Below the pieces are notes generated by a model. The model was not told the origin of the DNA. It searched no databases and saw only the letters and a list, made by a program, of their open reading frames with translations. The position numbers and the translations under genes were made by a program. From Mesorhizobium onobrychidis (GTDB lineage: Bacteria > Pseudomonadota > Alphaproteobacteria > Rhizobiales > Rhizobiaceae), in the NCBI RefSeq assembly GCF_024707545.1, contig NZ_CP062229.1, positions 2,089,501-2,153,500 of the forward strand: 64,000 nt of DNA, written 5' to 3'. Every line of letters starts with the position of its first letter. Positions within the stretch are counted from its first letter, which is position 1. Positions 30,947 through 63,840 of this stretch are shown here, one piece after another.

Positions 30947-31099
30947 TGTGCGCTGCCGGAAATTTTACAACCTGCCATACGATTTTTATTGATTGTGAAA
31001 TCCTTCGACCTTATATCGCCCTTGCCCAAAGTCGCACGTGCCTGTGGGTGTCCGCCGATCCTCAAAATGGTGAGGGATATCGGTAAGGTAACTGGAGCT

Positions 31100-31450
31100 A
31101 ACCCCTCCAGTCGGTTTAGCGGCCAACCGCCAGATCGAGGACACCTTGAAGCAACGACGGTGCGGGCCTTTCTGGTGTTCTGCCGGTTGTCCAAAGACCG
31201 GGGTTACTGAAGAGGCACACCTTCATTGCCGGCAGTGCGGACGGGTCTCCCATCCAAGCCAAGGCAGACAAAGCGAACCGAGGCCGGGCAAGGCCAAGGT
31301 TCACCGCCGCGAGACGGCGCTTCATGGTTCCGGGGTCTCCACCGGCTGGTTCCATGGATTTGACGTCCCGCCTTTGTCCACCGCGTGTTCGCGAGGTCGA
31401 TGACCCGCGTCCCGCAGCCTTTGTGCGCGCCGAAAGGCGCTGATGGAGAG
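31100..31450 (+). ncRNA. Candidate speF-type structured leader of ornithine decarboxylase
   Basis: About 500 bases lie between the amidase and ornithine decarboxylase genes with no coding signal, and the last 350 are rich in nested inverted repeats: GAACC-GGCC...GGCC-GGTTC (31275-31302), GCCGCGAGACGGC (about 31306-31318) and CGCGCCGAAAGGCGC just before the ribosome site. Established knowledge: a conserved RNA motif named speF occurs upstream of ornithine decarboxylase genes in alphaproteobacteria. Position, size and structure content fit, but I could not align it to the family model. It may regulate the gene in response to polyamines. Boundaries are approximate. Confidence 0.55.
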
Positions 31451-49721: not shown

Positions 49722-49733
49722 TCGCATTGTGAC

Positions 49734-49766
49734 GGACCCGGCGGCGGGTGCCGCCGGGTCCGTTTT
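49734..49766 (+). terminator. Strong Rho-independent terminator after potD
   Basis: 12-bp perfect stem GGACCCGGCGGC/GCCGCCGGGTCC, loop GGGT, then GTTTT. It separates the transporter operon from the serine hydrolase genes. Confidence 0.9.
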
Positions 49767-49788
49767 CATGTTTGCCGGGATGCATCTC

Positions 49789-50985
49789 ATGACTTCCTAC
49801 CGCAACACCGAACCGGTGCCGCCGATCATGCAGGGCTCGCCGCCCAAAATGGTGCCGCCGAAGCTTGACTGGGACAGGGGACCATGGAACCGCTGGGCGT
49901 TCCAGCACATCCGCGAAATTCTGCCAACCGTCGAAGTCTGGCGCGGCAATGGCCATCGCCGCCGGTTCGAGCGGACCGAGGTCGATCTCGATGCGCTGCC
50001 GGTGAGCGACAGCACGGGGCAGCCTACGACGCTGACCGGGCTGCTGGACGAAACCTATACGGACGGCTTCCTCGTGCTCAAGGACGGCAAGATCGCCTAT
50101 GAGCGCTATTGCAACGGCATGACCGAGCGCACGCTGCATTTGTCGCAGTCGATGGCGAAATCGGTCACGGGCTCGGTGTTCGGCATACTGGCCGGGCGCG
50201 GGCTTATCGATCCTGCCTTGCCGGTGACGACCTATTTGCCGGAGCTGGAAGCTACCGGCTGGGCCGGCGCCAGCGTGCAGCATGTGCTCGATATGACGAC
50301 CGGCGTGCGTTTTTCCGAGGAATACACCGACCGCTATTCCGATATCGGCCAGGTCGATGTCGCCAGCGGCTGGAAACCGGTGCCGCCGGACAGCGATCCG
50401 GCCTTCGAATGGCCGTCGCATATGTTCGAATTGATCCTGCGGCTCAAGGAGACAGGCCGGCCGCATGGCGCTGCCTTCGAATACCGTTCGATCGAGACCG
50501 ACGTGCTCGCCTTCATCATGGAACGAATATCCGGCATGCGGCTGGCGCAGCTGGTTTCGGAGGAACTCTGGCAAAAGCTTGGCGCGGATGAAAGCGCCTG
50601 CTTCACCGTCGACAGTGCCGGCTACGCCATCGCCGACGGCGGCTTCAACGCCACGCTGCGCGACTATGGCCGCTTCGGCCAGCTGATCCTCGACAATGGC
50701 GGCGGCGTGGTGCCGGCCGACTGGGTCGAAGCGACGCGCAACGGCAGGCATGGACCGGACTTCAATCCCAGCCTGCCGGAAGGCAGCTACCGCAACCAGT
50801 TCTGGATCGAGGATCCGCGCTCGCGCGCGCTGATGTGCCGGGGCGTGTTCGGCCAGCTGATCCATATCGACTGGAACACGAGAATGGTGGTGGTGAAGCT
50901 TTCGAGTTACCCGGATTTCACCGACATCGCCTACTCGGTGGCGACGATGAAGGCCGTGCACGCGATCGCCGCCGCGCTGGCCTAA
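49789..50985 (+). CDS. Beta-lactamase-fold serine hydrolase, first paralogue
   Basis: 398-residue enzyme of the class C/6-aminohexanoate-dimer hydrolase group (COG1680). Catalytic Ser and Lys are in SQSMAKSVTG (SxxK); the tyrosine motif reads AFEYRSIETDVLAF, that is Tyr-Arg-Ser rather than the Tyr-x-Asn of beta-lactamases; a later ADWVEATRNGRHGPDF segment follows. No signal peptide is obvious, so it is probably cytoplasmic. Start choice is uncertain: ATGs at 49768, 49780 and 49789 follow the terminator; 49789 has the best-spaced GGGAT. A tandem paralogue lies 28 bases downstream. The substrate is unknown, perhaps an amide. Confidence 0.85.
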   Translation: MTSYRNTEPVPPIMQGSPPKMVPPKLDWDRGPWNRWAFQHIREILPTVEVWRGNGHRRRFERTEVDLDALPVSDSTGQPTTLTGLLDETYTDGFLVLKDGKIAYERYCNGMTERTLHLSQSMAKSVTGSVFGILAGRGLIDPALPVTTYLPELEATGWAGASVQHVLDMTTGVRFSEEYTDRYSDIGQVDVASGWKPVPPDSDPAFEWPSHMFELILRLKETGRPHGAAFEYRSIETDVLAFIMERISGMRLAQLVSEELWQKLGADESACFTVDSAGYAIADGGFNATLRDYGRFGQLILDNGGGVVPADWVEATRNGRHGPDFNPSLPEGSYRNQFWIEDPRSRALMCRGVFGQLIHIDWNTRMVVVKLSSYPDFTDIAYSVATMKAVHAIAAALA

Positions 50986-51013
50986 GTTCCAAAGAAAATC
51001 GAGAGGGAACGCC

Positions 51014-52195
51014 ATGACCGGCAAGACCGCGTTCGAGACCAGACATGGCTTTGCCCGCAACCAGGTGCTGCTCGACAACTGGCGCGAAAGCCCGTTCAGC
51101 CGGTGGTCGTTCCAGAATGTCGGCGAGTTGGTGCCGAGCGTACGTGTCGCAGCCGTGCCGGGCAGTGGCGAAATACCGGTTCAGGATTTCGGTGGGCTGC
51201 TTGACGAAAAGGTCGCGCTGGCCGGCGGGCCGGAGACCGTTGCGGCCTTTCTCACGCGTTCCGATACCGACGCGCTGACAATCATGAAAGCCCGCAAGAT
51301 CGTCGGCGACTGGTTTGCACCGCATATGCAGTTCGGCGCCCGCCACATCATCTTCTCGATCAGCAAGTCGCTGACCGCCATTCTGGCCGGCATATTGGAA
51401 GGCGGGGGGATTTTTGATCCGCAGGCTCCGGTGACCCACTATCTGCCGGAAGCTGCCGGCTCGGCCTATGGCGATGCCAGTGTGCGGCATGTGCTCGACA
51501 TGACCGTCAGCCTTGACTTCGAAGAAGCCTATCTCGATCCGGAAAGCGCCTTTGCCCGCTATCGCCGCGCGACGCTGTGGAATCCGGGTGGCGGCACGGA
51601 AAGCCTGACCGATTTCATCCTGACGCTGCAGCGCCTTGCCGAGCCGCATGGCCGGACGTTCCGCTACCGCTCGCCCAATTCCGACCTACTCGGCATCCTG
51701 CTCGAGCGCGCGTCCGGCCAGTGCTTCGCCGAACTGATGCGCGAGAAATTGTGGCTGCCGCTTGGTGCAACGAGCGAAGCGTCGGTGACGGTCGACAGGG
51801 AAGGCACCGCGCGCACGGCCGGCGGCATTTCGGTGACGCCGCGCGACCTGGCGCGGGTCGGCGAGATGATGCGGCAAGGCGGCATGGCCAATGGCCGGCG
51901 CGTCGTGCCGGAAGCCTGGGTGCGCGACACTGTCAGCACAGGCGGAGACACTGAGGCCTGGCAGCGTGGCACGATGGCGTTCCTCTTTCCGCAAGGCCGC
52001 TACCGCAACAAATGGTACCAGACCGGTGCGGCAAGCGGCGCCTTCTGCGGCATCGGCATCCACGGCCAGTGGCTCTACGTCAATCCGACGGCCGAGGTCG
52101 TCATCGCCAAGATGTCGTCGCAGCCGGAGCCGGTCGACGAGCCGCTCGATCTCGACATGATTGCTTTCTTCGAGGCACTGACCCGGATGGTCTGA
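51014..52195 (+). CDS. Beta-lactamase-fold serine hydrolase, second paralogue
   Basis: 393-residue relative of the preceding gene with the same layout: [10 protein letters not shown] (SxxK), [21 protein letters not shown] (Tyr motif), [20 protein letters not shown] and [34 protein letters not shown] site precedes the ATG. The pair is probably a duplication that has diverged (similar motifs, different N-termini) and is likely cotranscribed. Family-level function is peptide, ester or amide hydrolysis. Confidence 0.86.
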
Positions 52196-57122: not shown

Positions 57123-60100
57123 ATGGCAATTCTGGCAGCCGTCTACCACCTGACCCATTACAAATATGACCGGCCGGTTGTTCTCGGCCCTCAGGTCATC
57201 AGGCTGCAGCCGGCGCCGCATTCCCGCACCAAGGTGCTCAGCCATTCGCTGAAGGTCGAGCCGGCGAACCACTTCGTCAATCTGCAGCAGGATCCCTACG
57301 GCAACTTCCTCGCCCGCTTCGTGTTTCCGGAACCGGTGACGGAGCTGAAGATCGAGGTCGACCTCGTCGCCGACATGACGGTCTACAATCCGTTCGATTT
57401 TTTCGTCGAGCCGTCGGCCGAGATCTTTCCGTTCGAATACCCGGAAGAGATCAGCGCCGATCTCGCCATCTACCGGACGCCGGAACCGGCCGGACCGCTG
57501 CTGTCGGCGTTCCTGCAAACCATCGATCGCCACCCAACCAACACCGTCAATTTCGTCGTCGACCTCAATGCGCGCCTGCAGCGCGAGATCGCCTATATCG
57601 TGCGCATGGAAACCGGCGTTTTTTCGCCGGAGGAAACGCTGGCCGCCAAGAAAGGCTCGTGCCGCGATACGAGCTGGCTGCTGGTGCAGATCCTGAGGAA
57701 CCTCGGCATCGCCGCGCGCTTCGTTTCCGGCTACCTGATCCAGCTGAAGCCCGACCTCGTCGCGCTTGACGGTCCGCCCGGCACCGCCGTCGACTTCACC
57801 GATCTCCATGCCTGGTGCGAGGTCTACCTGCCGGGCGCCGGCTGGATCGGCTTCGACCCGACCTCCGGACTGCTCACCGGCGAAAGCCATGTGCCTCTCG
57901 CCGCAACGCCGCATTTCCGCAACGCCGCGCCCATTTCCGGCATGGCGAGCTTCGCCAATGTCGAGTTCGGCTTCGACATGCGGGTCGATCGCATCGCCGA
58001 GCATCCACGCATCACCAAGCCGTTCTCCGACGAAAGCTGGCAGGCGCTCGATGCGCTGGGCAACCAGGTTGACGCCGCGCTGGAAGCCGGGGACGTGCGG
58101 CTGACCATGGGTGGCGAGCCGACCTTCGTGTCGATCGACGATTTCGAGGCGGAGGAGTGGAACACCGCCGCCGTCGGCCCGACAAAACGCGAAAAGGCCG
58201 ATGCGCTGATCCGCCGGCTGCGTGAGCGTTTCGCGCCCGGCGGCTTCCTGCACTACGGGCAGGGCAAGTGGTATCCGGGCGAAAGCCTGCCGCGCTGGAC
58301 CTTCTCGCTGTACTGGCGCGCCGACGGCGAGCCGGTGTGGAGCGACCCGTCGCTGATCGCACGGGAAAACAGCGAAGCAGATGAAGCAGGCGAAGCAGAT
58401 GTCGGGCCGAAGCAGGCTGAAGGCCTGCTGACGGCGATTGCTGATGAACTCGGCATCGACAAGACCATGGTCAGCGAAGCCTATGAGGACCCGGCCGAGT
58501 GGCTGCTCAAGGAAGGCAAGCTGCCGGAGAATGTCGATCCGTCCAATTCGAAGCTGGAGGACCCCGAGGAGCGCAGCCGCATGGCGCGGGTGTTCGAACG
58601 CGGCCTGACCAAGCCGTCGGGCTATGTGCTGCCTGTCCAGCGCTGGAACAGCCAGGCGTCGGGACCGCGCTGGCGTTCGGAGAAATGGAAAACGCGGCGC
58701 GGCAAGCTGTTTCTGGTGCCGGGCGATTCACCGGTCGGCTACCGCCTGCCGCTGGGCACGCTTCCCTATGTGCCGCCGGCGCAGTTCCCCTACATCGTGC
58801 CGGTCGATCCTTCCCTGCCGCGCGGGCCATTGCCGGCGCGCGAGGCTATTTTGCCTGAAGCCGCTCCGTTGCCGGAGGCTGCACCGGCCGAACTTGAAGG
58901 CGCCGACGAAATGGCACGCCGCCAGCAGGCGGCGTCATTCACCGCCGCGACCGGCCAGCAGGACCGTGTCGAACAGGAGATCACCGAGATTGGCGGCGCG
59001 GTGCGCACCGCGCTGTCGGTCGAGCCGCGCGACGGACGGCTTTGTGTGTTCATGCCGCCGGTCGAGGCGCTGGAAGATTACCTCGAACTGGTCGCGGCGG
59101 CCGAGAACGCGGCAAAGGCTATCGGCCTGCCGGTGCATATCGAGGGCTACAGCCCGCCGCACGATCCGCGCCTCAACGTCATCCGCGTGGCTCCGGATCC
59201 CGGCGTCATCGAAGTGAACATCCATCCGGCTGCGAACTGGCAGGACTGCGTGGCGACGACCACAGCGATCTACGAGGAGGCGCGGCAGACGCGGCTTGGC
59301 GCTGACAAGTTCATGATCGACGGCCGCCATACCGGCACCGGCGGCGGCAACCATGTCGTCGTCGGCGGCGCGACACCTAACGACAGTCCGTTCCTGCGTC
59401 GCCCCGACTTGCTGAAGAGCCTGGTGCTGCAATGGCAGCGCCGTCCGTCGCTGTCCTATCTGTTCTCAGGCCTGTTCATCGGCCCGACCAGCCAGGCGCC
59501 GCGTTTCGACGAGGCGCGCCACGATTCGCTCTACGAGCTCGAGATCGCGATGGCGCAGGTGCCGCATCCGGATAAGGGTCAGGCCCCGCTGCCGTGGTTG
59601 GTCGACCGGCTGTTCCGAAATCTTCTGACCGACGTGACGGGGAACACCCACCGCTCGGAAATCTGCATCGACAAGCTGTTTTCGCCGGACGGGCCGACCG
59701 GCCGGTTGGGGCTGGTCGAGTTCCGCGGCTTCGAAATGCCGCCCAATGCGCGCATGAGCCTCGCGCAGCAATTGCTGGTGCGCGCCATTATCGCCCGCGC
59801 CTGGAAGAACCCGCTCGATGGCCGCTTCGTGCGCTGGGGCACGTCGCTGCATGACCGTTTCATGCTGCCGCACTATGTCTGGGCTGACTTTCTCGATGTG
59901 CTGGACGACCTCAAGCTGAACGGCTTTGAATTCCGTCCCGAATGGTTCGACGCGCAGCTCGAATTCCGCTTTCCGTTCTGCGGCGAGGTCCAGCATGCCG
60001 GCATCAAGCTGGAACTGCGGCAAGCGCTGGAGCCATGGCATGTCATGGGCGAGCAGGGCGCCATCGGCGGCACGGTGCGCTTCGTCGATTCCTCGGTCGA

Positions 60101-60518
60101 GCGGCTGCAGGTGAAGACGGAAGGGCTCAACCCGGAGCGTCATGCCGTCGTCTGCAACGGCCGCATCGTGCCGATGAAGGTGACCGACACCAGAGAGATC
60201 GCGGTGGCGGGGGTCCGCTTCAAGGCCTGGCAGCCGGCATCGGGCCTGCATCCCGCGCTGCCGGTCAATACGCCGCTGGTCTTCGACATCTACGATCACT
60301 GGTCGGGCAGGGCGGTCGGCGGCTGCGTCTACCATGTCGCGCATCCCGGCGGGCGCAGCTACGACACCTTCCCGGTCAACGGCAACGAAGCGGAGGCGCG
60401 GCGGCTCGCCCGCTTCGAACCGCGCGGCCATACGCCGTCCGGCTACGTGCTGCGCGACGAACAAGCCTCTGAGGATTTCCCGATGACCCTTGACCTGCGG
60501 CGGCCTGCAAGACTCTGA
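57123..60518 (+). CDS. Transglutaminase-like and DUF2126 fusion protein
   Basis: 1131-residue protein. N-terminal beta-rich domain and transglutaminase-fold domain (about 1-290) with the catalytic Cys in [10 protein letters not shown], His in [12 protein letters not shown] and Asp in FDPTSG. The rest is DUF2126 (about 330-1131): [62 protein letters not shown] and an [15 protein letters not shown] segment. DUF2126 has been placed with the amidoligase/glutamate-cysteine-ligase-like fold, so the protein may both ligate and cleave peptide-type bonds. No signal peptide. ATG at 57123 follows a weak site. It is the first of three closely spaced genes. Confidence 0.9.
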
Positions 60519-60524
60519 TCAGCC

Positions 60525-62930
60525 ATGGCAAAGGGGAATCACAAGAAAATACGCGGCAGGCCGCACAACCTGCTGGAGCACTACCAGCCGATCGACGGCG
60601 TCGTCGACGAGATGGTCGATGCATCAGGCAATCCCCGTCCGGTCTGGAAGGAGTTCATCGAGGCACTGGAAGAACTGGGGCCCGAAAAGCTCGCCCAGCG
60701 TTTCGCCCGCGCCGACCAGTATCTGCGCGACGCCGGCGTCTATTACCGCGTCTATGACAAGGCCGGCGCTAATGAGCGCGAATGGCCGCTGGCGCATGTA
60801 CCGCTGCTGATCGAGGAGCAGGAATGGGCCGCGATCAGTGCCGGCCTGGTTCAGCGGGCCGAGCTGTTCGAGGAAACGATCGCCGATATCTACGGGCCGA
60901 ACCGCCTGGTCGAGAAGGGCATCCTGCCGGCGGGGCTGATCGCGGCCAGCCCGGAATATTTGCGGCCGGTCGTCGGCACCAGACCGGCCAGCGGCCATTT
61001 CCTGCATTTCTGCGCCTTCGAGCTCGGCCGTGGACCGGACGGCCGCTGGTGGGTGCTGGGTGACCGCACGCAGGCGCCGTCGGGTGCCGGCTTTGCGCTG
61101 GAAAACCGCGTCGCCACCACGCGCGCGCTGTCCGACATCTATGGCGAGATGCATGTGCACCGTCTTGCCGGCTTCTTCCGTCGCTTTCGCGACGCGCTGA
61201 ACGGCATGGCCAAAGTATCAGGCGGCCGTGTCGCCATCCTGACGCCGGGGCCGCTAAACGAAACCTACTACGAACATGCCTATATCGCCCGCTATCTCGG
61301 CATCATGCTGCTCGAAGGCGAGGATCTGACCGTCTCCGGCGGCCGGCTTATGGTGCGCACCGTTTCGGGGTTGATGCCGGTCAGCGTGCTTTGGCGGCGG
61401 CTCGACGCTGCCTTCGCCGATCCGCTGGAGTTGCGGCCGGATTCGCAGATCGGCACGCCGGGGCTGGTCGAGGCGATCCGCCGGGGAGCGCTTTCAGCCG
61501 TCAACGCGCTCGGCTCCGGGCTGATGGAAACGCGGGCGCTGTTCGCCTTCCTGCCGAAGATTTCGCGCGAATTGCGCAACGAGGAGCTTCTCTTGCCGAG
61601 CGTCGCGACATGGTGGTGCGGGCGGGACGCAGAACGTGACCATGTGCTGGCTAACCTCGACCGCATGGTGATCGGTCCGGCGCTGTCGACACGGCTTGCC
61701 TTCGAGGACGACGATTGCACCAGGCTTGGCTCGGCGCTGGTTGCCGGGGAGCGGGCCGCACTGATAGCCCTGATCGAGCAGAACGGCGGCGACTTTGTCG
61801 GACAGGAAGCGGTGACGCTTTCGACCACGCCGGTCTATGTCGGCGGCTGGCTGGAGCCGCGGCCAGCAGCCCTGCGCGTCTATCTGGCGCGAACACCGGA
61901 AGGCTGGACGGTGATGCCCGGCGGTTTTGCCCGCGTCGGCTTCTCGCTCGACCCGACGGCCATCGCCATGCAGCGCGGCGGCCAGGCGGCGGATGTGTGG
62001 GTGGTCAGCGACAGACCGGTGGAGCGCGAGACGCTGCTGCCGCAAGAGCGGGACAGCTTCACCCGTACCTTGCCGGGCAGCCTGCCCAGCCGCGCGGCGG
62101 AAAACCTGACGTGGCTCGGCCGCTATATCGAGCGATCGGAAGACACGGTGCGCATCTTGCGCGCCTATCACGTGCGGCTGGCCGAGGCCTCCGACCCGGA
62201 TATGCCGCTGCTTGCCGATATCAGAGATTATCTCGAACCGTTCGGCATCGACGTCGAAACCGCGATCCCGCCGGGGCTGATCGGCACCTTGGACAGCGCC
62301 GTCTACAGCGCCGGACAAATCCGCGACCGCTTCTCGCCCGATGGCTGGCTGGCGCTGAAGGATCTGTCGAAGACCATTCATCAATTCGCGACAACGGTTG
62401 CGCCGGGCGATGACGCAACGCGGGCGATGACGGTCATCCTGCGCAAGCTCGCCGGGTTTTCCGGCCTGCTGCATGAAAATATGTACCGCTTCACCGGCTG
62501 GCGCTTCCTGGAGATCGGCCGGCGGTTGGAACGCGGCATCCAGATCGCCCGCACGCTGGCCCGGTTGACCAGGACTGCGGCGCCGGACGGCGCGCTCGAC
62601 ATGATGCTGGAGATCGGCGACAGCGTCATGACCCACCGGCGGCAGTATCCGGTGCAGGCCGGCCGGCGCACGGTGATCGACCTCCTGGTGCTCGATCCGC
62701 TCAACCCGCGCTCCATCCTGTTCCAACTCGAGCGGCTGAAGGCCGAAATCGCACTGTTGCCTGCTGTCGGCGGCGAGGGGCACATGTCGCCGGCGGCGAA
62801 AGAGATCCTGCAGCTCAACACGGCAATCGCCATCAAGGAGCCCTCGGACATGACGGCGCAGGCCCTGGCCGATCTCGCCAACGAGATCGGCGGCCTCTAC
62901 AACAGCCTCGCCAAGGCCTATTTCGGCTAA
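60525..62930 (+). CDS. Circularly permuted ATP-grasp (DUF404) plus alpha-E (DUF403) fusion
   Basis: 801-residue protein starting 6 bases after the previous stop. About 1-480 is a circularly permuted ATP-grasp ligase (GPNRLVEKGILPAGLIAASPEYLRP, WVLGDRTQAPSGAGFALENR, RVAILTPGPLNETYYEHAYIARYLG, LRPDSQIGTPGLVEAIRRGALSAVNALGSG). About 510-801 is the all-helical alpha-E domain (LPSRAAENLTWLGRYIERSEDTVRILRA, HENMYRFTGWRFLEIGRRLERG). In many genomes these are separate adjacent genes; here they are fused. Predicted to form amide bonds on an unknown peptide or protein, together with the neighbouring transglutaminase-like enzymes. All functional statements beyond domain identity are inference. Confidence 0.9.
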   Translation: MAKGNHKKIRGRPHNLLEHYQPIDGVVDEMVDASGNPRPVWKEFIEALEELGPEKLAQRFARADQYLRDAGVYYRVYDKAGANEREWPLAHVPLLIEEQEWAAISAGLVQRAELFEETIADIYGPNRLVEKGILPAGLIAASPEYLRPVVGTRPASGHFLHFCAFELGRGPDGRWWVLGDRTQAPSGAGFALENRVATTRALSDIYGEMHVHRLAGFFRRFRDALNGMAKVSGGRVAILTPGPLNETYYEHAYIARYLGIMLLEGEDLTVSGGRLMVRTVSGLMPVSVLWRRLDAAFADPLELRPDSQIGTPGLVEAIRRGALSAVNALGSGLMETRALFAFLPKISRELRNEELLLPSVATWWCGRDAERDHVLANLDRMVIGPALSTRLAFEDDDCTRLGSALVAGERAALIALIEQNGGDFVGQEAVTLSTTPVYVGGWLEPRPAALRVYLARTPEGWTVMPGGFARVGFSLDPTAIAMQRGGQAADVWVVSDRPVERETLLPQERDSFTRTLPGSLPSRAAENLTWLGRYIERSEDTVRILRAYHVRLAEASDPDMPLLADIRDYLEPFGIDVETAIPPGLIGTLDSAVYSAGQIRDRFSPDGWLALKDLSKTIHQFATTVAPGDDATRAMTVILRKLAGFSGLLHENMYRFTGWRFLEIGRRLERGIQIARTLARLTRTAAPDGALDMMLEIGDSVMTHRRQYPVQAGRRTVIDLLVLDPLNPRSILFQLERLKAEIALLPAVGGEGHMSPAAKEILQLNTAIAIKEPSDMTAQALADLANEIGGLYNSLAKAYFG

Positions 62931-62955
62931 GGGCGGGCTCAGATAAAGGCGGGGC

Positions 62956-63840
62956 ATGCTCTACGACATCAGGCTCAATCTGCGTTACGACTATGACGCG
63001 GCGGCGGGCGGCGGCCGCCATCAGGTGCGCGTGCTGCCGCCGACGATATCGGGCGTGCAGCGCGTGATCGCCGCTTCGCTGTCCTTCGCGCCGGCGCAGA
63101 GCGAACGCTCGGATTTTTCCGATTTCTTTGGCAACAATGTCACGTCGATCGCCTTTCGCGACGTTCACGATGCGCTCGACATCAGGATGAGCGCGCGCGT
63201 CGCGGTCTCGCGGCCGGAGCCTGGGCTTGACGTGTCGCCCGACATTCGCCGGCTGCGGGAGGAACTCGACGCGGTGCGGTCGCTGTCGCCTGATACACCG
63301 CATCACTTTCTGGCCGCCAGCGACCATGCCGGCATCGATGCTGATATCACGGGTTACGCGCGGAGCAGTGCCGGCAACTCCGCTGTCAGCACGGCCATGG
63401 ACCTGTGCAGCCGTATCTACCGCGATTTCACCTATGATGGCGAGGCGACTACGGTGCAGACCCGGGCAAGCGATGCCTTCGACCTGAAGCGGGGCGTCTG
63501 CCAGGACTTTTCGCATATCATGATCGCCGGCCTACGCGGCCTCGGCATTCCCGCCGGCTATGTCAGCGGGTTCCTGCGCACCATTCCGCCGCGCGGAAAA
63601 CCGCGGCTGGAAGGGGCCGACGCCATGCATGCCTGGGTGAAGGTGTGGTGCGGGCGCGACACCGGATGGCAGGAGTTCGATCCGACCAACGGCATCCGGG
63701 CAAGCAACGACCACATCACCGTCGGCCACGGCCGCGACTACTCGGATGTCGCGCCGATCGTCGGCATCCTGAAGACGACCGGAGGGCAGGTCGGCGAGCA
63801 AGCGGTCGACGTCATTCCGGTCGTGCTCGAGAAAGCATGA
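62956..63840 (+). CDS. Transglutaminase-like protease-family protein
   Basis: 294-residue protein beginning MLYDIRLNLRYDYD, an N-terminal beta-sandwich domain, then a transglutaminase fold (about 165-260) with the catalytic Cys in KRGVCQDFSHIMI, His in DAMHAWVKVWCG and Asp in FDPTNG. Lacks a signal peptide. It follows the ATP-grasp/alpha-E gene after 25 bases. It belongs to the same family that accompanies DUF403/404 genes across proteobacteria and is likely a peptidase acting on the ligase product. The last gene of the block seen here. Confidence 0.92.
   Translation: MLYDIRLNLRYDYDAAAGGGRHQVRVLPPTISGVQRVIAASLSFAPAQSERSDFSDFFGNNVTSIAFRDVHDALDIRMSARVAVSRPEPGLDVSPDIRRLREELDAVRSLSPDTPHHFLAASDHAGIDADITGYARSSAGNSAVSTAMDLCSRIYRDFTYDGEATTVQTRASDAFDLKRGVCQDFSHIMIAGLRGLGIPAGYVSGFLRTIPPRGKPRLEGADAMHAWVKVWCGRDTGWQEFDPTNGIRASNDHITVGHGRDYSDVAPIVGILKTTGGQVGEQAVDVIPVVLEKA

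Follow-up and report, generated by a model that had tools for sequence, protein, structure and literature searches.

The three-gene operon at positions 57123–63840 of a 64,000-nucleotide stretch of the Mesorhizobium onobrychidis genome (contig NZ_CP062229.1, positions 2,089,501–2,153,500; hereafter the window) combines transglutaminase-like, DUF2126, ATP-grasp and alpha-E domains. Our analysis indicates that the product of its second gene, an ATP-grasp domain fused to an alpha-E domain, retains the ATP-grasp fold but has lost residues that its unfused relatives share without exception, and is therefore very unlikely to be an ATP-dependent ligase. We propose an amide-bond system of two modules, in which the operon would be the accessory one, acting with a catalytically complete ATP-grasp/alpha-E/transglutaminase/Anbu operon of the same genome, and we rate this chain as a whole, its product excepted, at a probability of roughly 0.4. 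The operon belongs to a known, uncharacterised system, and what this analysis adds is the recognition of a pseudoenzyme, along with that of a dependence on unfused alpha-E. Open reading frames (ORFs) and Pfam matches confirmed the layout given in a preliminary description of the window, namely three genes on the same (+) strand (57123–60518, 60525–62930 and 62956–63840), separated by gaps of 6 and 25 bases and with the domain contents noted there.

Gene 2 (60525–62930, + strand, 801 amino acids) matches the Pfam families CP_ATPgrasp_2 (451 bits) and Alpha-E (188 bits). Its degenerate circularly permuted ATP-grasp domain spans residues 93–471 by Pfam (60801–61937, +), and both the sequence and the predicted structure, with a mean predicted local distance difference test score (pLDDT) of 89.2 for the protein, identify an ATP-grasp fold. 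The six core positions were defined on the unfused copy, numbered as in L018:3521–4930, as E155, N157, K316, K363, D423 and N454, with roles that we assume from glutathione synthetase chemistry. At these positions the window protein carries G179, R181, R337, G384, A449 and A481, the last just past the Pfam domain end, and none of the six is kept. All six were found in 30 of 30 unfused proteins, whereas only 0 or 1 remained in 103 of 103 fused relatives, of which 86 are alphaproteobacterial according to kinship and titles and two (L049 and L093), with contigs equal in length, seemingly derive from the same contig, so that the 103 are not independent; three of the 136 ATP-grasp ORFs, with at most 430 residues (L122 and two pieces in L173), were left out of this count. 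The glycine-rich loop was mostly lost as well, G369 being kept in 10 of the 103 fused proteins, G370 in 15, Y371 in none and G372 in 20. These counts speak against the ATP-grasp ligase implied for gene 2 by the preliminary description. The alpha-E helical domain (residues 520–800; 62082–62924, +) retains both ER motifs intact, and in each set of 24 copies, fused and unfused, every E and R of these motifs was conserved in 23 or 24. Among seven pairs compared by the ratio of nonsynonymous to synonymous substitution rates (dN/dS), dS of the ATP-grasp domain exceeded 1 in four, so the domain ratios of these four are rough; the ratios for gene 1 were lower (0.06–0.18).

Since the ATP-grasp domain is without catalytic residues, a different domain in a neighbouring gene probably does the joining. 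Gene 1 (57123–60518, +, 1131 amino acids; Pfam matches Bact_transglu_N, Transglut_core and DUF2126, the last at 1336 bits) fuses a transglutaminase-like domain (residues ∼1–250) to DUF2126 (residues 278–1126). In structure comparison, DUF2126 matched the glutamine-synthetase fold, with gamma-glutamylmethylamide and 1-naphthylamine enzymes among the matches, in agreement with the amidoligase-like domain previously noted. The region of this fold (residues 299–951; 58017–59975, +) is presumed to be an active ligase, and E332, E697, H744, E866 and R868 did not vary in either of two alignments, of 17 and of 35 relatives. DUF2126 is probably the ligase of the operon; it would form an acyl phosphate from a carboxylate (probably that of a glutamate side chain) for coupling to an amine. 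Both transglutaminase-like domains contain the Cys, His and Asp described before, as C180, H229 and D245 in gene 1 and as C182, H225 and D242 in gene 3, a stand-alone transglutaminase-like protein (62956–63840, +, 294 amino acids; Bact_transglu_N and Transglut_core). These positions were kept in 23/23 gene-1-type and 24/24 gene-3-type domains in the alignment, and both proteins are putative peptidases or transamidases. With about even odds, they would cut or transfer the bond made by DUF2126. To the pseudo-ATP-grasp–alpha-E protein we would assign, with similar confidence, a role as non-catalytic subunit in substrate binding, substrate presentation or regulation of the ligase.

In a survey of 150 Pseudomonadota genomes, in which an alpha-E domain within an open frame of at least 800 amino acids was counted as fused, DUF2126 was present in 46 genomes and alpha-E in 83. 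Unfused alpha-E occurred in all 83 of the latter, the fused copy being an addition in 44, and all 46 DUF2126 genomes carried unfused alpha-E; the chance of such a coincidence would be 5e-16 if genomes were independent, a figure that overstates the significance since they are related. The fused protein was found in 40 of the 46 DUF2126 genomes, in each case within 6 kb of DUF2126, and outside the class to which the window belongs unfused alpha-E lay at most 10 kb from DUF2126 in 27 of 31 genomes. In the stretches fetched around the loci (for 20 of the 46 DUF2126 genomes, plus 20 further stretches), complete unfused alpha-E genes have an ATP-grasp gene alongside. The clustering of the three genes is conserved, in support of the preliminary description, their order being the same at 71 of 80 named loci (the best 80 of 591 confirmed stretches; close relatives, alphaproteobacterial by their titles), at one of which the complete unfused Anbu operon is adjacent; the other nine miss some part of the trio, several at contig ends. 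The trio also occurs on a Granulicella plasmid (Acidobacteriota), on a Caballeronia plasmid with unfused ATP-grasp and alpha-E beside it, and on the 90.7-kb IncFII plasmid p1_120063 of Enterobacter roggenkampii (L182), again with unfused ATP-grasp and alpha-E; in the latter, arsC and an IS26-family transposase lie within the same 20-kb stretch. In Tsukamurella (Actinomycetota), one record holds the fused protein and gene 3, and another the unfused ATP-grasp, alpha-E and transglutaminase; these records (L169 and L170), named plasmid 21 and 18, carry aspS, alaS, nadD and rpsT and look like chromosome pieces. Given its presence in 44 of 150 genomes, in other phyla and on plasmids, the fusion is ordinary rather than unusual as first thought, and the operon is real and common.

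The preliminary description had also suggested looking for an Anbu-like protease near the trio. The genome does possess one Anbu gene, its sole match lying at C1:4145239; it belongs to a separate and complete unfused operon (ATP-grasp, alpha-E, transglutaminase and Anbu) at C1:4.14 Mb, ∼2 Mb away, and the window operon itself, which has the other three components, contains no Anbu. A second proteasome-family match elsewhere in the genome we take for a putative HslV. Among the 150 genomes Anbu was matched in 53, including 27 of the 46 with DUF2126, for which Anbu is thus optional, unlike unfused alpha-E. In the genome's own unfused operon, a gene for a 23S rRNA intervening-sequence protein (PF05635; L018:5032–5346) stands between ATP-grasp and alpha-E; in nine other Anbu operons this gap is at most 270 bases, too short for such a gene. 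The small peptide gene sought nearby did not emerge, as the largest small-ORF family around the trio was present in 9 of 71 loci, and no further conserved gene was found within 6 kb, the best family reaching 16 of 80 loci. A putative zinc metallopeptidase (Peptidase_Mx; e.g. L171:7225–8286) appeared in the stretches of 16 of 127 loci, including the query's own, and also beside the modules in Hymenobacter.

A joint action of the two modules in cellular nitrogen economy is a tentative suggestion that draws on published data from relatives. In Burkholderia cenocepacia, the sigma54 targets I35_5080-83, annotated as DUF404/407, DUF403, transglutaminase-like and large transglutaminase-like, were expressed 8.2-, 9.4-, 9.4- and 6.0-fold lower under nitrogen limitation when ntrC was mutated (PMC5491218); from its name and place, the large protein probably corresponds to that with DUF2126. 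In Pseudomonas putida, PP_2685 and PP_2688 were up on nitrate (PMC8050072), PP_2686-2688 rose 11- to 37-fold under nitrogen limitation (PMC7801951), and PP2685-2687 were up 6.6- to 11.1-fold (PMC3325844). In our own material, a −24/−12 match (p ≤0.02) was located upstream of 13 of 26 unfused ATP-grasp genes, where ∼0.5 would be expected. An extended scenario, which we regard as rather doubtful, is that an ancient ATP-grasp/alpha-E duplicate fused, lost catalysis once and became the dedicated pseudoenzyme subunit of the glutamine-synthetase-fold ligase; in nitrogen-limited cells the system would conjugate or unmake a peptide, and Anbu would serve the other module as peptidase. The tree took in 30 of the 103 fused copies.

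Several observations weigh against the two-module proposal. The likeness of DUF2126 to glutamine synthetases is by fold only: the best glutamine synthetase in Foldseek had an E-value of 0.04, and when five glutamine synthetases of the genome were compared with it as profiles, hhalign gave a probability of 0.5%, which is not significant. Position 334 is a threonine, invariant in relatives, where the E-x-E motif has its second glutamate. Within the class of the window, only 1 of 15 genomes has the two modules in proximity, with unfused alpha-E at most 10 kb from DUF2126. Six of the 46 DUF2126 genomes lacked the fused protein and 4 of the 44 fused-protein genomes lacked DUF2126, some genomes being incomplete, and 19 of the 46 had no Anbu match. 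In Sinorhizobium meliloti Ak57 (L186), the fused protein and gene 3 occur in a 14-kb stretch from which DUF2126 is absent; the record, named pSymB, measures 3.7 Mb, large for a replicon so named. Concerning nitrogen, −24/−12 matches (p ≤0.02) preceded 5 of 103 DUF2126 genes, ∼2 being expected by chance, and the Anbu gene PP_2685 changed 1.12-, 4.81- and 1.45-fold in three strains, that is, little in two (PMC7801951). A review describes the Anbu operon as unresponsive to various other conditions (PMC5666114), and co-expressed proteins of the Yersinia Anbu operon showed no specific interactions (PMC6376114). Moreover, no sigma54 −24/−12 consensus (at most one mismatch) was found upstream of 57123, a search that a far-from-consensus promoter would escape, nor was there a −24/−12 match before the genome's own unfused operon. 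Hence, nitrogen control of the window operon is only a guess from relatives, with the local evidence against it.

The alternative that survives best, although we consider it unlikely, is amine use, in which DUF2126, like gamma-glutamylmethylamide synthetase, would turn small amines into gamma-glutamyl amides for the transglutaminase-like domains to cleave or shuttle. The fold matches and the nitrogen response of related operons suit this possibility, as does an association seen in marine metagenomes with domains of urea metabolism (PMC3597751). However, with no family beyond 16 of 80 loci there is no conserved amine transporter or oxidase within 6 kb, and a small amine accords less well than a peptide with the Anbu gene carried by 27 of the 46 DUF2126 genomes. 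A gain of new chemistry by the fused protein, its substitutions at the former ATP-grasp site forming another active site, appears improbable. It would agree with the 32 positions at which at least 85 of 100 fused proteins share a residue that is rare in the unfused proteins, including R181 (94 of 100), Q183 (85), G189 (99), E335 (98), W364 (97), G366 (97), P447 (88) and M482 (86), but only 15 positions of the domain alignment were invariant in all 100, few for an enzyme, and a conserved arginine in the former metal site would be equally expected of a pseudoenzyme. An active peptide ligase in gene 2, with formation and cleavage of a peptide tag or storage peptide by the three genes alone, is highly improbable in view of the lost core residues and loop and of the lack of a conserved small ORF, despite the Pfam score and an ATP-grasp of the Yersinia Anbu operon that frees phosphate from ATP, since the latter comes from a four-gene operon of the unfused kind, in which alpha-E has its own gene (PMC6376114).

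If the fused copy is no ligase, as the two-module proposal holds, the search for activity shifts to DUF2126 and the unfused copy, and the presence of both modules in one genome becomes understandable. Public records label the fused copies ‘circularly permuted type 2 ATP-grasp protein’ (best 120 of 7931 matches), and Pfam scores their ATP-grasp domain as though whole. The 46 of 46 DUF2126 genomes with unfused alpha-E, together with the nitrogen data from relatives, suggest a growth condition and double mutants worth trying. Past gene 3, the next + strand ORF of at least 150 amino acids encodes DNA topoisomerase IB, not a protease, and extends beyond the window end. Elsewhere in the window, at 31024–31327, a match to the small RNA ar45 is directly followed by a speF leader match; this alphaproteobacterial RNA agrees with the best protein hits (the best 120 of 7998 and of 7931), by which the genome falls within or next to Mesorhizobium. 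Two adjacent ORFs of similar length (418 and 393 amino acids) occupy 49729–52195, the second encoding a beta-lactamase-family protein.

The link to the published Anbu/ATP-grasp/alpha-E/transglutaminase proposal is supported (PMC5666114, PMC6376114, PMC2588565), the hypotheses in print on the Anbu operon having had no experimental confirmation as of 2017 (PMC6376114). With that operon (PMC5666114, PMC6376114) the window operon shares the circularly permuted ATP-grasp fold, the alpha-E ER motifs and a transglutaminase-like protein, and it differs in the fusion of ATP-grasp to alpha-E, the degenerate ATP-grasp, the transglutaminase–DUF2126 protein and the absence of Anbu. Unlike glutathione and glutathionylspermidine synthetases and E. 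coli YgiC and YjfC, gene 2 is without the residues invariant in unfused circularly permuted ATP-grasps. Compared with glutamine synthetases and gamma-glutamylmethylamide synthetase, gene 1 has no significant sequence similarity to five of the glutamine synthetases of its own genome and adds a transglutaminase-like domain. Gene 1 has the architecture of the Rv2566-type family, a fusion of a transglutaminase-like domain with a carboxylate-amine ligase domain, for whose neighbourhood the absence of a small Pup-like ORF is likewise reported; the excerpted account says nothing on a fused ATP-grasp–alpha-E protein, and it relates the DUF2126-type ligase to Pup ligase and gamma-glutamylcysteine ligases (PMC2588565).
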